Positions 7,836 through 25,408 of a DNA stretch of 64,000 nt are shown piece by piece (positions within the stretch are counted from its first letter, which is position 1; each line of letters opens with the position of its first letter). The translations under genes and the position numbers were made by a program. The DNA is taken from positions 62,001 through 126,000 of the forward strand of contig NW_026251785.1 in assembly GCF_025024155.1 (NCBI RefSeq). Direction: 5' to 3'. This DNA comes from Gamsiella multidivaricata. Taxonomy: Eukaryota; Mortierellomycota; Mortierellomycetes; Mortierellales; Mortierellaceae. The notes beneath the pieces are model-generated. The model was not told the origin of the DNA, made no database searches, and worked only from the letters and a program-made list of their open reading frames with translations.

Positions 7836-7907
7836 TGATCTACGCAGGGGTCGAACCTGCAATCTCCTGATTCGTAGTCAGACGCCTTTCCATTGGGCCA
7901 GTAGACC
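7836..7907 (-). tRNA. tRNA-Arg (anticodon ACG), copy 1
   Basis: The 72-nt gene folds as a full cloverleaf. The acceptor GGTCTAC pairs with GTAGATC (one G-U) and the discriminator is A. The D stem is GCC/GGC and the anticodon stem TCTGA/TCAGG. The loop CTACGAA carries anticodon ACG. The T arm is GCAGG-TTCGACC-CCTGC. There is no intron. A near-identical gene with matching flanks lies at 25337-25408 on the other strand. Confidence 0.92.
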
Positions 7908-13273: not shown

Positions 13274-14449
13274 CGAGGACTACCTCGGCTCGCTCCGACG
13301 GCCACAGACACGAACGGGTGTGTGAGCCAGGGCGATTTAATTAAATGGGTCGACCCGCAACCGCGAAACAAAGTTGCAGCCAACCCGATCTTTGCCACTG
13401 AGAGCATTAGCGGGGCAACCTGGGCTCGCAGCAGCCCAGCCGGCTGGCTTGGCCAAGCGGGACGTCCGCCTCTTCGCTCACTCGCTCGGCCCTCCCCCGC
13501 ATGGTGGACTTGAATTTTATTGGACCTGCGTCCTTGCTGCTCGGCCCAGCACTGCGTCCCTGGAGCAGGTTTGTTGATTAGTCTACGTTTGATTTTCATT
13601 TCTGGCTGACTCGGACTTGCTCAGCAAAAATTCGCCCAAAGTGACATGCAACACCCACTCCGCTGGTGCGAAAGCATTGCTGAGTCGCTGCTGCTGATCG
13701 TTGGACTCCAGCAGCACATCGTGCGGCTCGGCCCTGCATCCCTTGTCGCGATCAGGCCAAATCGAGGACGCGGCCACTCTCGCCCTCTATGCGCTCTCGA
13801 CGCCTATCTGGCCAGTGTAGGATCTCTGCCGAGACACCAGTTTAGCGGAGAAATTCCAATTACGAAATCTCGCACCCTCTCATACAAATTTTACAGGAAT
13901 TCTACTATTCGCCTTATGTTCACTCCCAGTTGAAGCAGTTTCTCTTTTGAGGATTTGTATGGGTTGCCAAACAGATCCCTACATATATTTTTTTATCCTA
14001 GTCGAATCCCTTCTATCAAATTTTAAGCTCAGTCTCTTCGCTGACATACTGCTTTTCCATCCGAATAGATATGTAGACGTGGACAAAAGAAGCGAACTTT
14101 AGACAGGGACGCACTTTCACTTGCAAACTAATACGGTATATCAACTATTCATCGATGGAGAAGTGTAATAGTAGCGCTTTTAGGGCCATGAGGCCCTTAT
14201 TGATGGAGAGATAGACAGTATTCACGTCTGTGTCATTATCAGCTTCAATCCCAAAATCAATGACGGGACCTGAGGCGACTGCGAACCCAGTGATGTGGTC
14301 ATATCCGGCACCTTGAACGTCTCACTGTGCAAGATGTACTCCAGCCGTCTGCTACAGCTGTGTTGGACCGTATTTGTCCACGTATCGCGCCAAAGAAGAC
14401 AGACCCCGCTACAGACAGTACCAACGATGACGAACAGGACAAGAATGCC
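13274..14449. other. Gene-poor spacer with a dispersed repeat motif
   Basis: No convincing coding frame is present. At 13951-13976, GGATTTGTATGGGTTGCCAA followed by ACAGAT matches 7712-7739 (GGATTTGTGCAGGGGTTGCC, then AAATAGAT), so the same short repeat occurs twice in the window. The stretch just before 14450 may hold worn N-terminal codons of the Fanzor-like relic, but I could not place a frame. Confidence 0.4.
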
Positions 14450-15699
14450 AGTGACTTGGGGAGGGGTGGCGACAAACAAGAGCAGTTCCTTCCTGGGCTT
14501 TTACGATATCTCTTCCGAAATCTCAAGGTGTCGGGAACGTGGTGAACACGTTCATTGCACGTCTAGAGGACTTGAAGCTGTTGAACAAGGGTGGTAGATC
14601 CACGATAAGGACGATGGCCTACACACCGTCTGGTTTGGTACGGTCTGTTGCCTCGCAACTCTCTGCCGAGCTCAAGAGGACTTACAGGAACGGTAGCTAT
14701 GGGCTTCACGAAAAGGTACAAATCAATGTTCGACGCATTTTGACACATTAATAAACTGAAATTGAGGAGTATGCATAATAGCGTGTACTTGCATTGACAA
14801 TCTTTCTATCACAGCTCAAACGCCAGCAGGAGAAAGGTTTCCTATCCAAGGACTGCAGCATCGAGATTCGCAAGGATAAATCTGCAATCGAGAATTTTCT
14901 CGGCTTGAACAAGATCAGCATGGACAGTCGCAGACTTGCTCCTATGTCGCCTCCGGAACAGCCATTCATGTCATTCATAGAGAGGGAGCTGGCGGCCTTC
15001 TTTTGGAAGAAAGAGTTGCTAAGGGTCAAACTCCAAGATATGGCCTCACCCGACTACCCTGACATCGCTGCTAGCGGACTATCACTCGCAGATGTGACGA
15101 GTTATATTGGGACCAAGGAGCCAGGATCCCTCATCAAGCGCCTACTTTCGGATGTCGCTAAAGAGGGTCTGACTATACGCCAGCGGGGCAAAGCAGGACA
15201 TAGGGCTGAAGTGAAGCTGATGTCCTCGGAGCAGATCAAACAGCACATCGATCCCTTCTGCCAACCCCTATTCGATCCAGAAAGAAAGGCTATGTCTTAC
15301 GAGGTTCCATTCGAACGGACGGGTTTCGCATCTAGCTTCTTACTTTTAAGCTAAAAGAACTACAGTCGGCTCGATACAGGCGGCTACTCAACAACGCCTT
15401 GCCTCCTCGGATTACCTCTACCAAGGGGAGTACAGATTACTTTTTGGCGAAGATCCGCAACGTCATCAAGACTAAGGAGGACGCCGCACAGCTCTGGCCG
15501 GAATGTAGGCCCGAGGACATCATAACTCTGGGTGTTGATCTTGGTCAGGCATGTGTTCTTGGTGCGAGCGCGTTGCTACCGGAGGCTGCTCGCCCAGTCA
15601 GTAATGTCAAAATAAGGGATCGTTCCGATACGGATACCGACGTCGCTATAAAAGGACCATGCAGTACATCTACCGCAGCTACTCCTACCGGGCCGTCAA

Positions 15700-15720
15700 C
15701 CCCCCCCCCCCCCCCCCCCC
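15700..15720 (+). repeat. C21 homopolymer
   Basis: Twenty-one C residues are followed by TCCTCCTCCT inside the linker of the Fanzor-like relic. The opposite strand is a G21 run able to form a quadruplex. Length is likely to vary between individuals and to be hard to sequence. Confidence 0.9.
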
Positions 15721-16208
15721 TCCTCCTCCTGCTATCTTCTACAATTTGGCTGTGAAGCAGAGGGCTGTTTATTAACCAATCTTCAAGCATCGTCACTGGA
15801 TGGAGGAGCAAAAAGGAGGGCGAAACAGAATCCATATCCAACATTGAAAGCAATCTGTCCCCTCTCATGGCGAAGACGCCGGCTACGTGAGCTTTGTCGA
15901 GGTCCTTGAAAAAGTAGAGCAGCGGCTCGATGGCTTCTACAATGATGACAACATGCGCTTCAAAAGGCACAAGTGGAACGCCCGAAGGGCCCGGGAGGAA
16001 AAGAAATCAACAAGGTCGTGATTGCGATTGGTCTTGGGTAGGTTTCCGGTAAAGCGAGGCTTTCCTCGCTGCATGAGTCGTTCATGTCGTACTTCGTCCA
16101 AAAAGTAGGTGCACCGTCGCTGAGCTTTGTTTCGCTTCTGTTGGATTTTTGACATGTGTCTAGCACAGTTTTATAACGTACCTGATGCCGGTCTATTAAA
16201 AAATGATT

Positions 16209-16327
16209 AAAAAAGTCAGTTAAGGAAAAGAGCTAATGAGGACATGAAAAGAAAAAAAGTCAGATGTAGCAAAGAGAAAAAAGGTCAGATATGGGAGCAG
16301 AGCAAAAAAGTCAGACGTGGCAAAGGG
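16209..16327. repeat. Imperfect ~26-bp tandem repeat, AAAAAAGTCAGAYGTRGCAAAG
   Basis: Four degraded units start near 16209, 16252, 16277 and 16304. Each has an A-run followed by GTCAG, and three continue with a form of AYGTRGCAAAG. The minus-strand zinc-finger ORF ends inside the last unit, so the array lies at one border of that insert. Confidence 0.55.
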
Positions 16328-17288
16328 AATAGAAACAATTGGTTTTCATAAGGGACATCGCTTCTTGATCTTTTGACGACGGCGGCAAAGAGTTAGCAAC
16401 AGGTTGACCCTTGCGTACGACGAAGGGCTCTCGATGGGCATCGACTAGTCTTGTCCGGCCATAAGCCTCGATCGTGTTGGCAATGATGACCTGACCGTTC
16501 TGGTTGTTGAGGAGGAGGCATCCAGCAAGAATCTTTGCGCAGGCAAATTGGAGATGGGGAGAAAATTCCCAGTCTCGGTTGAAAAGCTCGCAAACGCCAT
16601 TGTCGAGTTCGATGTACTTTCGCCTCTGTATCAATGCTGCATAGGGCGAAGTCGACAACACATTCTCCAGTCCAGGTGCTTGAGTTGGAGTGCAAATGGG
16701 ACAGGTATCGTGATGGGCATGCTTCCTTTTTTTGGGTGGAGGCATGTTTGGGACGACTTGACCTTGACCAGCGGACAGCTTGACTATGACCGAGATATGG
16801 GCCAGACCATTTTGCTCTGCTCCGTCAGAATCCTTCATGGCGAAAGGCCTCAGTTCGAGTGCATCGACAATGCCCAGTATCCGTTGCTTCTCCGCGTCAG
16901 AGACGTGTGTCTGATTGCAGCTGCACAGGACCGCATCATTGTACTCTCGCATCTAAGGTGTTGAGTCGGCCGTTATTGGGACTGGAAGGTGGCTCGGCAT
17001 GGCGATGACTGGTGGTTGTTGGCCAGGCTCGTCGTTGTCTTGCTCTTCAGGGGCACAGGTCAAGTTGGCCAGGTGTTTGCGGCATCCTACTTTGGTCTTG
17101 AATATAACGCTGCAGAAAGGACAAGAGTAAACACCATCAATCTGCGTGACAGTGGCCTGTTTCGATGAGCCAGCCTTTGTGAGGACGGTGACGGTGAAAG
17201 TGGACGCATGATAGTTCAAGGAATGAGCTCGACACTGATCAGGTTCGTGTTGATGTACACTTGGAGCAAGTCCAGGTTTGGTCGGCCA
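16311..17288 (-). pseudogene. Zinc-finger-like hypothetical protein ORF with one in-frame stop, antisense inside the Fanzor relic
   Basis: The minus-strand frame is open from 17288 to 16311 except for a single TAG at 16955-16953. The first part carries a C2H2-like unit (YSCPFCSVIFKTKVGCRKHL), then an acidic, Gln/Pro-rich stretch. The second part has CSCNQTHVSDAEKQRILGIV, a basic PPPKKRKHAHHDTCPIC segment that could be a nuclear signal, and a helical region ending SLCHV. No ATG clearly opens the frame, so an upstream exon may exist. I do not recognise the family. The lone stop suggests recent decay, or that the two halves are separate exons. It lies entirely within the gap of the Fanzor-like gene, on the opposite strand. 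Confidence 0.55.
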
Positions 17289-17329
17289 TTATGAAGCATA
17301 GCGATAAATATGGCAGGCTGACGAAAGAT

Positions 17330-17381
17330 GGTGATGCTCCTGGCCAGAGAGGTGATGCTCCTGGCGAGAGAGGTGATGAAC
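17330..17381. repeat. 21-bp tandem duplication
   Basis: GGTGATGCTCCTGGCCAGAG plus A is repeated at once with a single change (GGCGAG), followed by half a third unit. It encodes a repeated SLARSIT on the minus strand, but no protein call there is convincing. Confidence 0.6.
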
Positions 17382-17918
17382 TGAAGATTTCCCGTCCTGG
17401 GCCTGTGTCGTTTTTCCATGTCGTATGACTTCAGCAGGACGTGTTTGACAACCACCCCTTAATTCACACCCGCAGATTGTGGTCGATGTAAATGAGTATT
17501 ATACTTCCCCGTATGCGAGCAATTCGTCGCACAGGCTGAAATACGCTGACTCTATTGCTCTCACTGTAAAATATCCATCCACCGGGATGTGATGGCCTAC
17601 CACAATATCGGCAACGTGGTCCGTGGTCATCTGGTCAAGCAACGAGCGCCATCACTAATACCACGTCTATCAACACAAGCAGCACCAGCAGCACCAGCGT
17701 CAGCACCAGCAGCGAAACCCCTTCGATCAGTGCCATGCCGAGCCAAGGTCAATCTATTGGCCGCAAGAGAGCCAGCTCAACGTAGGGGGGACGGGAGGGG
17801 CGTGAAAAAGGCGCGCGCAGTTGTAGATATGTCCAGTTTCTTTGTGTGTTCGCAAGCACACTATTTCTTGCCGTTGCTCAAACGTTGTTGCCTTCTCGGT
17901 GACACCATTAGAGCCTGA

Positions 17919-20900
17919 AGATTAAGCTGTCTTTCGCCAAGCTGGCCGTGTAAACTTGGACAAAACTATGTCTCTTTGTGTTGGGGCACTATTGGTCAGT
18001 AGAGTCGGTCGGTCAGATGACTGAGCTCAATGTGAATCAGAGTAAGAGTTGTGGGGTTGCGGATTCAGTGCGAACTTTGGCCAAAGGCTACATCGACAAA
18101 GTTCACCGCATAGATCGGATGTAAAAAAAAATTCTTACAAATCGGCTTCCTATCGAGATATTCGATGTGGGGTACTGTTCGCCAACGTCTAGAGTCCACG
18201 CGTTTCTGGTAATGTTCTCAAAGGACTACCGCGGGATGTCCTGTGTTTTGCAGTGACGTGCCTGAACTATATTAATATTGACTTTGGCTGTAGTAGCTTA
18301 GGATACGACTAGGGAGGTAAGAGACGTGCGTATTTCGACGGAAGGCGGTGCTGAGGGTAGTTCTATTATAACTCTGAGATCCTGGCGCCCCTTCTGCGGT
18401 CCATTTACAGAGTAAACTGAGCCGAACCTCGACTAAAGTCCCCGTGTGCATGATTTTGTTCGGACAATAATGGACCCTGCGCAGAACCTTAATCTTGCTG
18501 CTCATCACACGCACTTCCTTCCGTACTCGTGCACCGGGTAATCAAAAGAAACGGCAGTGCAACCCAAACACAACATAGACCAAACATCGGATTGCCTTAC
18601 AAGTTCTAACGCGTAGAGAGAAATGAAGACATGAGGCTTAGCTATATCTCTTACCTCTATTCCCCAGCCTTTGGATGGTGTCGATTGTGTGTTGATGATA
18701 CCCATTTTAGTCTTTGTTTGTAGTGCTTCTCAACCAAAGTCGTACAACATATACAAATGAATTTTTGTTTGGGCTATGCGCAGGCACTATCGTCGAGTAA
18801 ACAACAAAGGATGCATTAGAAGGTGAGATAAGAGTTAACGAATATCTTCTTTAGGAGTGCGTTGGGTTTGCCAGTTAAACATATATAGTTCCCGTTAACG
18901 GACCTGAAAGGCCAGAGGGCGAAATGCAATCGAACAGCACGACCACAAAGTTGGGCTAGGTGGTACAATCAGCCATGGAAAGACGGTAACAGGTCTGGAA
19001 GCGCTCACAAACTTGTGCGGGCATTACTGTTGGCAACGATGCAACCCAGGCAATGTTTTTCATGCATGAAGACATTATGAATCTCGATCCGCATGCCTCA
19101 AACCACGTTCCCGGGTCTATTTATTTTTAGACCGAGCCCTCATGCTTCGCGACTAAACTCCAGCAGATGCAGGCTGAATGCGCTGTTCTAACAGCAGTGG
19201 GAGGGCTTCGTTTAGAAGGAGGAAGAGAGGGGAGAGAAGAAGAGACGGGCAAGACCTGATGACGAAGAGGTTGTTGGGCTGGATACAGGTATTGAAGGTT
19301 GAAGCTCTTGGCAATCTTCAAAGATTTAGCTCCGTAGCACAAGGGCACAAAGATACTGGGTCCCGCTCTCGCAAACTCTGCCTGGAACAGCCAACTTAAA
19401 CCGAGGCACGGGGGAGCATAAGGTTCTCAACCCACGCGCGATGAATCCGAGGGACGATAGAAAAACAAAACACAGACGATAACAAATGCTAAACGAGGAT
19501 GCCGATCATCCCATTCGGGCTTCCCCCTCCGATAGCCAGTCCGCGTAGATCGAGGAAAGCCGAGAAAGGGTTATGGTTGCGGCAAAGAACAGCCAACGAG
19601 CAGCAAAAGCCATTGGTCGACAGCCAGCTGACCACGGAACTAAAAACCGGGCCTGGCAAGCGAATAAAAATGAATGCTCAACCATTAAACTTTCATAACC
19701 CACACCGGCGCCTTCCGTTGTTGTGCAGCTCCACACCTTCGGTGCTCTTTGGTGTGGGAGGAGATGCAAGGATAACAGAGTTTGAGACATCGTACGAGGT
19801 AGTGCCCCCATAGAGGCAGATCGAATTCCTTTTTTTACGATTTGAGGGTATCATGGGGCGAATGCAGCGACATGCTGACGAATCCGAAATGGACCTGCGA
19901 CTGCAGTCAACCATGCCATCCTTGCAGAACAAGAACCGGTAGCTGTGATAAGGGGGTAGGGGAAGGGGGGAAAGAGGGGCGGTTTCCTTTCTTCGCTTTC
20001 CCCCCTGTCACTGGAGCACTTTACCGCCTAGTCCTGTTTTAACATCGCTCGGTGATTTTTGCTTTGTCTAGCCCAATAGTGCTCAGAGAATTCTCGGTAA
20101 TCTCACAGTGACGGTGTAGCCTATTAGGCATTGACTTTAAGTTATCTTCCCACCTAAACAGGGTCGAGGTGCTCTCAGTGCTCTTCTTTGCATGTGGCTC
20201 TCTTTTACGGTTCCAGGGCAAACAGTCTTCCTTACAACCCGCGGTCGAAATGTACCAATGGTGCCCCATGTAGTCCTTTGGTGAATCCAGACACCGCTCC
20301 TGGCTATGGGGCCTATGCATTACTGGTTCAGTGGTGTGACATGATATCTTTCTTTCTATTGTCTCATTGGATGATGGCTTCTTTATGTAGTCAGCACACA
20401 CGGACTATGCAAATGTCAATGTCCCGCGCATCAAGTCGAGATTCCCTCAGCATAAAGGATCGTGCCAGAACCGCGGCACCACAAACAGGAGGTCGGACAA
20501 TACAATGAATTGAAGATCTGAGAGTACAACGCTTGGCTTCCGACAGACAAAGTGGTGAGCAGCTGGACAAAGATGACCAAAGAAATACAGGGTGCGGTGA
20601 TACGATCGTCAACATCGCGTTGTCTAGACCAATCTAAAAGGACGAACAGCATGCGAAAGTGAACAGCAATGGCGCTTCCGTCTTGATCAACTACTTGACC
20701 CATCACTTTCTATCCATCTTCCTCGCAAGGTGAAATAAACCACCGGTGTGCTCTTTGACTGTGCATCATTGTTGGAGGATAAACAGTAAGCCTAGCCTCC
20801 CCGTACCTCCGTTGGGCTAGGACGTCAGTATTGGTTGAACACTCATTTCTTTTGTCGTCTTTTGTTACTACTCTCCATCTCCAGATAGACACAAGTCTCT

Positions 20901-25336: not shown

Positions 25337-25408
25337 GGTCTGCTGGCCCAATGGAAAGGCGTCTGACTACGAATCAGGAGATTGCAGGTTCGACCCCTGC
25401 GTAGATCA
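25337..25408 (+). tRNA. tRNA-Arg (anticodon ACG), copy 2
   Basis: The 72-nt sequence equals copy 1 (7836-7907) except for G at acceptor position 6, which leaves a G-U pair. All arms fold, the loop CTACGAA gives anticodon ACG, and the T arm is intact. Upstream flank (about 110 bp) and downstream trailer (about 45 bp) also resemble copy 1, so the whole transcription unit was duplicated. Confidence 0.92.

Follow-up and report, generated by a model that had tools for sequence, protein, structure and literature searches.

Fanzors are eukaryotic RNA-guided nucleases, and sequence comparison has confirmed that a decayed gene for one of them lies at 14.3-17.9 kb in the window, the 64 kb stretch of the genome of Gamsiella multidivaricata that is analyzed here. 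The window copy is dead, and on its own this relic is an ordinary fossil; the novelty lies in the family behind it. Very probably, the ancestral protein was a FEN1/EXO1-type 5′ nuclease joined N-terminally to a Fanzor, and the locus is a dead copy of the mobile element that carried it. An earlier note on this DNA had described the locus as a fossil Fanzor, a reading that was correct yet incomplete, as it did not recognize the probable ancestral FEN1/EXO1-Fanzor fusion in an element of the Mutator-like (MULE) type and overlooked an earlier start at 14274 with a FEN1-like remnant, an insert at 16371-17378 and an intron at 14716-14814. The host genome was searched as 37.5 Mb in 180 contigs, and below, C numbers designate contigs and P numbers database proteins.

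The five motifs by which the locus had been recognized were all found on the + strand and in the order that had been given, namely GVDLGQ (15531-15548), IGLG (16027-16038), NEYYTS (17491-17508), CSHC (17556-17567) and HRDVMAYHN (17580-17606). When 69 homologues, which are protein-database sequences and nearly all Fanzor relatives, were compared by tblastn with the whole 64 kb at E ≤ 1e-3, the matches were confined to 14.0-18.0 kb, a result well beyond what chance would give. The six best proteins span 14306-16137 and 17452-17678, with P0014 as the top query (E 3.8e-86, 31-63% identity), and the reading frame shifts along the relic in the order +2, +1, +3, +2, +1 and, past the insert, +1, +3. 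The decay that had been claimed is evident in these frame changes, in the stops and in the absence of the first CxxC. The zinc-ribbon Pfam model PF07282 also finds the locus in a search of the whole genome (window 17442-17609, E 0.0026), where the match contains three internal stops and its 23.4 bits are below the cut-off of 26.3. That the locus descends instead from an unrelated RNase H-like family, the outcome that the earlier note had said would count against it, is hardly credible: the relic's own pieces are weak in Pfam (PF07282 at E 0.08) and its three pieces match no PDB sequence at E 1, but no profile search favored another family, and the PF07282 genome search, tblastn and fold comparison place the relatives with Fanzors. 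The other such outcome, relatives without a TnpB-type zinc ribbon, did not occur either, as the ribbon is complete in the relatives (23 aligned proteins).

These relatives are numerous. The PF07282 search of the genome gave 140 zinc-ribbon matches at E ≤ 1, 104 of them above the Pfam cut-off, and the best-preserved piece of the relic (14782-15351) has 77 other matches in the genome, the top one at 46% identity, with frames around matches that stay open for as many as 633 aa. The expectation that active relatives exist elsewhere was thus borne out as far as many better-preserved copies, open or nearly open, are concerned, but not as to activity itself. At least 67 Fanzor matches were found in the protein databases (7,992 candidates scored), under names that are presumably those of Mortierellomycete genera; 23 long proteins were aligned, and an alignment of 47 served for a model. 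The zinc-ribbon cysteines are kept in 23, 21, 23 and 22 of the 23 aligned proteins, the RuvC-I and RuvC-III aspartates in all of them and the alternative RuvC-II glutamate in 21, and in the numbering of P0002 the pattern comprises RuvC-I D944, TS at 1184-1185, the C4 residues at 1188, 1191, 1205 and 1208, and D1215. The relatives conform to the Fanzor1/TnpB pattern D-X(125,275)-[TS][TS]xx-C4 zinc finger-X(5,50)-RD, as given in the available part of Bao and Jurka (PMC3627910), while the relic has one CxxC missing. The alternative glutamate, which the available text of PMC10711439 places six residues ahead of the zinc finger, is found in the relatives, and NEYYTS is retained in the relic; the full pattern is present in 37 of the 67 matches, some of these being partial.

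The same text gives RuvC-I as DPG “near exclusively” in Fanzors (PMC10711439), and here the family departs from it. DPG is present in 2 of the 23 proteins, the middle residue being otherwise L (9), G (7), A (4) or M (1), and the relic has DLG. As DPG is taken to be typical and not defining, the family is filed as a variant of Fanzor. Fold comparison of the C-terminal two thirds gives the overall Fanzor1/TnpB fold. In the PDB, Fanzors emerge by this route only; the 28 matches listed by the profile search include no Fanzor chain. With the solved Fanzor1 structures SpuFz1, PpFz1 and GtFz1, to the extent that they are described in the available part of the source (PMC11423790), the family shares this fold, the alternative RuvC-II glutamate, the zinc ribbon and the RuvC-III RD, but its RuvC-I is mostly DLG, DGG or DAG where theirs is DPG, and it adds an N-terminal FEN1/EXO1 domain and linker (~440 residues).

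What remains of this additional domain in the relic is a stretch of 12 residues at 14274-14309 (+ strand), GDCEPSDVVISG, which corresponds to the strand preceding the DxD acidic pair of an XPG/FEN1-like domain and has 10 of its 12 residues identical to those of P0012, a protein from another Mortierellomycete (E 0.004 when 2 kb were searched with the 69 proteins). Its BLOSUM score is 56, whereas the best of 60 shuffles in three-base blocks reached 27; the query peptide was derived from the same P0012 match. If the relic were a plain Fanzor without the FEN1 fusion, this piece would be a product of chance, and its shortness and an E value obtained in 2 kb with queries that are mostly interrelated are what such a view can draw upon. 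The piece is, however, on the right strand and in the right order and abuts the first Fanzor match with a 4-base overlap, and together with the shuffled scores this makes a chance match quite improbable.

The fusion itself is most apparent in the relatives, where the Fanzor exons are preceded on their own strand by a FEN1/XPG-like exon, also in divergent subfamilies, and the gene is arranged as FEN1 exon, helical exon, linker and N-terminal exon, main exon and last exon. FEN1-like matches in the genome number 104 and merge to 90 loci, and a Fanzor is found 1-8 kb downstream on the same strand at 67 of these, compared with 4 where it is upstream and 11 where it is on the opposite strand within 8 kb. 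On C122, the exons of which contain stops and a frameshift, each of the four exon joints can accommodate a GT-AG intron (in every case the best of several candidates), and the in-frame FEN1-to-linker intron can be placed at the homologous point in the divergent subfamily on C96 (picked from 3 and 15 candidate pairs). In other species, independent gene models provide 23 long proteins that align through both the FEN1 and the Fanzor parts, and the N-terminal 330 residues of P0022 matched 7 other proteins, 4 of which have PF07282. The FEN1 part has the XPG/Rad2 fold and seven acidic active-site residues, numbered here as in FEN1. Six of these are D or E in 17 of 18, 20 of 21, 22 of 23, 20 of 23, 22 of 23 and 22 of 23 of the proteins that have a residue there, and the E160 position is D in 23 of 23. 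It resembles the XPG/Rad2/FEN1/EXO1 nucleases in fold and in the seven acidic positions, and differs from them in that the second E of E-x-E is an aspartate in all 23 proteins, in its fusion to an RNA-guided nuclease and in being borne by a mobile element.

A different explanation is that the FEN1-like and Fanzor parts are two neighboring genes of one element, merged by gene predictors, whose proteins act apart. The linker of four readable, recent A-family copies would agree with this, as its variable sites number 7, 9 and 7 at codon positions 1, 2 and 3, with no third-position bias and no selection signal (L035 was dropped because it has no readable stretch), and a column upstream of the Fanzor core, with Met in 8 of 22 proteins, could be a start. 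Yet this Met is preceded by ten columns (P0002 residues 365-445) that are all conserved, in 17-22 of the 23 proteins, and both the intron, which can be placed at one and the same position in two divergent subfamilies, and the alignment of the 23 proteins across both parts argue for a single gene, so that two separate genes are unlikely. The fusion is nevertheless opposed by the result of the codon test, by the stops or frameshifts that several host copies have in their FEN1 or linker exons, and by those gene models among the 23 that begin inside the FEN1 part, their N-termini being incomplete.

The relatives also reveal the kind of element by which the fusion gene is carried. A MULE-type transposase gene is situated upstream of it on the opposite strand, divergently transcribed, and contains a SWIM domain (E 1.1e-5, above the cut-off). 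The assignment to MULEs comes through this domain and through the transposase homologue P0073, which has PF10551 (MULE) and PF21056, and Pfam gave nothing on the transposase pieces beyond SWIM and a weak MULE match. MULE target duplications are 8-11 bp in length. One copy, of 7,944 bp (C93:971941-979884), is flanked by a 12-bp direct repeat, and repeats of 9 bp and 8 bp were found on C122 and C124, at most a 6-bp partial one on C47 and no convincing one on C94 and C111. The 3′ ends are sharp in subfamilies B, C, D and E, with that of the A family uncertain by a few bases, and the 5′ ends are ragged. Close to the latter, at 10 of 16 junctions, the motif ACGTCA, to which the conserved 3′ core is reverse-complementary, is found no more than 70 nt ahead of the base at which conservation begins, compared with 0 of 245 control windows. 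It may be what the Fanzor targets, a site that the transposase prefers or a repeat near the terminus. At the 5′ junctions (L101-L113, C47, C124, C93) it falls outside the target duplications, where these are recognizable. An oppositely oriented core motif was observed at the 5′ end of another element in L102 (C171), where the guide-RNA end of one element may be the target of another element.

Several results do not fit an element of this type as well. The direct Pfam MULE match in this genome is weak (E 0.11), and the 8-bp repeat on C124 may have arisen by chance, as 8-bp repeats are found at other offsets on C94 and C47. Terminal inverted repeats, a MULE characteristic, were not found in the C93 element, the sole one bounded on both sides, and neither a target duplication nor a transposase remnant was found when these were sought at the relic itself.

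The guide RNAs of TnpB and Fanzor end at the 3′ boundary, behind the stop of the gene. It is at this location that the related copies contain a nested hairpin, which extends from behind the Fanzor stop up to the end of the element, where unrelated flank follows, and which has the core GGTGACGTA in most subfamilies. These structured 3′ ends recur, and the hairpin is likely the end of a putative guide-RNA (omegaRNA) scaffold. Seven of the 11 related ends that were folded have z values of −3.6 to −6.2, and compensating changes can be seen by eye between L096 and L082 and between L086 and L097. With ≤2 mismatches the core pattern occurs at 44 places in the genome, versus 2 for the reversed control, and 15 of the 44 follow the start of a zinc ribbon at a distance of 50-900 nt, with none upstream of a ribbon and none on the opposite strand. 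Because RNAalifold gave no common pairs on a MAFFT alignment of 13 ends, the model of the scaffold end, termed R1, is based on sequence only; it excludes the relic and also the D-family ends, which fold differently. In an R1 scan of 12-20 kb on both strands, the core of the relic was the best of 6 matches (5.5 bits), and the candidate end falls inside the interval, 17.6-18.3 kb, in which the earlier note had forecast it.

The case for a scaffold is diminished by the remaining 4 of the 11 related ends, which fold at just z −1.3 to −2.3, by the two stretches of the relic itself, which at z −0.53 and −0.84 are no better than shuffles, and by the R1 score of the relic's core, which reaches E 0.14 only. 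In addition, the 5′ limits used for this folding were chosen after the folds had been viewed, and low z values are thereby somewhat favored. It is possible, if doubtful, that the hairpin is not a guide RNA and is instead a transposase-binding or terminal structure of the MULE. The reverse-complement ACGTCA at the 5′ junctions indicates that part of the 3′ core is possibly a transposase site, and 29 of the 44 core places have no zinc ribbon just upstream (for example, C46:342585 and C119:165820), although these may be ends near undetected Fanzor fragments, solo ends or guide RNAs, or short non-autonomous elements. Against such a structure, the hairpin is one-sided and located behind the Fanzor stop at the 3′ boundary, where guide RNAs of this kind end. 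The far end of the sole two-sided element was found to have no inverted copy of the 3′ end, and the stems recur across subfamilies with differing sequence.

Along the + strand of the relic, the FEN1 remnant leads into the decayed N-terminal Fanzor exon (14306-14715, frames +2 then +1), which was identified by tblastn with Mortierellomycete proteins and is 43.9% identical over 57 aa (E 5.5e-9) to the corresponding exon of L058. It is separated by a 99-nt GT-AG intron (14716-14814, GTACAA...ATCACAG), which sits at the position of intron 3 of the relatives (C94, C122, C96), from the decayed main exon (14815-16104, frames +1, +3, +2, +1), which holds GVDLGQ (RuvC-I), IGLG and a poly-C run at 15700-15720. 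By comparison with C122 and C94, intron 4 starts at 16105 with GTAGGT after ...SYFVQK, and it is followed to 16370 by unassigned sequence that includes A-rich 25-bp repeats at 16250-16329. The decayed last exon (17452-17678) contains NEYYTS with the alternative RuvC-II glutamate, the half ribbon CSHC and the RuvC-III motif HRDVMAYHN. Behind it are the hairpin GTGTGTTCGCAAGCACAC (17844-17861), the counterpart of a GTGTG..CACAC hairpin downstream of several related Fanzors, and the decayed candidate scaffold end matched by R1 (17883-17931), with its CTCGGTGAC core at 17895-17903. Comparison with related ends places the 3′ end of the element probably at 17931, and the guide of an intact element would, judging from the 3′ ends of related copies, be read from the flank at 17932-17951.

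The region between the main and last exons is interrupted at 16371-17378 by the insert (− strand), a copy of sequence from another locus, which occupies the intron-4 region of the relic. It is identical to C122:281273-282308 at 976 of 1036 alignment positions (94% nt identity), and this counterpart belongs to a reading frame of 735 aa that contains tandem repeats of 21 bp. The insert accounts for an antisense frame at 16314-16952 that is gene-like in look and has 9 further matches in the genome, one on C122 at 95% identity and the other eight at 24-49%. By these comparisons 16371-17378 is not Fanzor sequence. Elsewhere in the window, the opposite strands each have a tRNA-Arg (ACG) gene, the two being at 7836-7907 and 25337-25408.

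Some observations concern the other copies. Subfamily D (L017, L019-L027 and L011) is a recent amplification, with eleven copies seen that are mostly 95-99% identical. Five of them are near the right-hand end of their contig, and the idea that such copies are telomeric elements was rejected, as no telomere-like repeats were found in 64 loci, including 5 stretches that reach a contig end. In L113 (C126:734465-734625) a D-type element has its 3′ end directly ahead of the 5′ end of a B-type element, by nested or adjacent insertion, and a frame behind a truncated Fanzor copy (L038:2672-3460) resembles by eye a pogo/CENP-B-type transposase, which would make it an element within an element.

The closest known carriers are the MuDr-type Fanzor1 elements of Rhizopus, Phycomyces and Mucor which, in the available part of their description, have MuDR-like terminal inverted repeats and do not encode a transposase (Bao and Jurka, 2013, PMC3627910). 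On that description, they likewise have a Fanzor1 in a Mutator-type element of early-diverging fungi with target duplications of ~9 bp, while here the transposase and Fanzor are head to head, a FEN1 domain is added, and the sole two-sided element gave no terminal inverted repeat. The pairing of a Fanzor with an XPG or flap endonuclease was not found in open-licence literature, and may be in print elsewhere; nor did that literature yield anything on Fanzors in Mortierella or on transposons in Gamsiella multidivaricata. Relative to it, the FEN1/EXO1-Fanzor family is, as its sequences indicate, a new variant of Fanzor.

How such a protein would serve its element can be proposed tentatively, with somewhat less than even confidence: in Mortierellomycetes, a single polypeptide would combine an RNA-guided cutter and a built-in resecting nuclease, would use a guide from the flank beside an ACGTCA-type motif and would promote copying back from a homologous copy, and the window would hold its fossil. 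In the course of events taken as most likely, the transposase would move or excise the element, leaving an empty site. The 3′ hairpin would close the guide RNA, with the guide supplied by the flanking DNA, and the complex of Fanzor and guide would recognize and cut the empty site. The FEN1/EXO1 part would then trim or resect the 5′ ends at the cut, and this processing of the break would favor restoring the element from a homologous copy over end joining. Through such repair the element would retain both its place and its copy number. Alternatively, the FEN1 part might trim flaps that are made during integration. The window copy is itself incapable of this mechanism because little of the FEN1 part is left, several frames and one pair of zinc-ribbon cysteines are gone, and a foreign insert has been gained.

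A fused repair-type 5′ nuclease would be a direct clue to what Fanzors do for the elements that carry them, as a cut made by a protein of this kind is probably destined for processing towards homologous repair. An engineered Cas9-exonuclease fusion is reported, in the available part of the source, to raise homologous recombination in Pichia (PMC9450370). Such fusions similarly link an RNA-guided cutter to an exonuclease for homologous repair, but they are man-made, and the family described here would be their apparently natural counterpart. Its many related copies, with their differing flanks, provide the material with which the guide, the target motif and the retention of the element can be tested.

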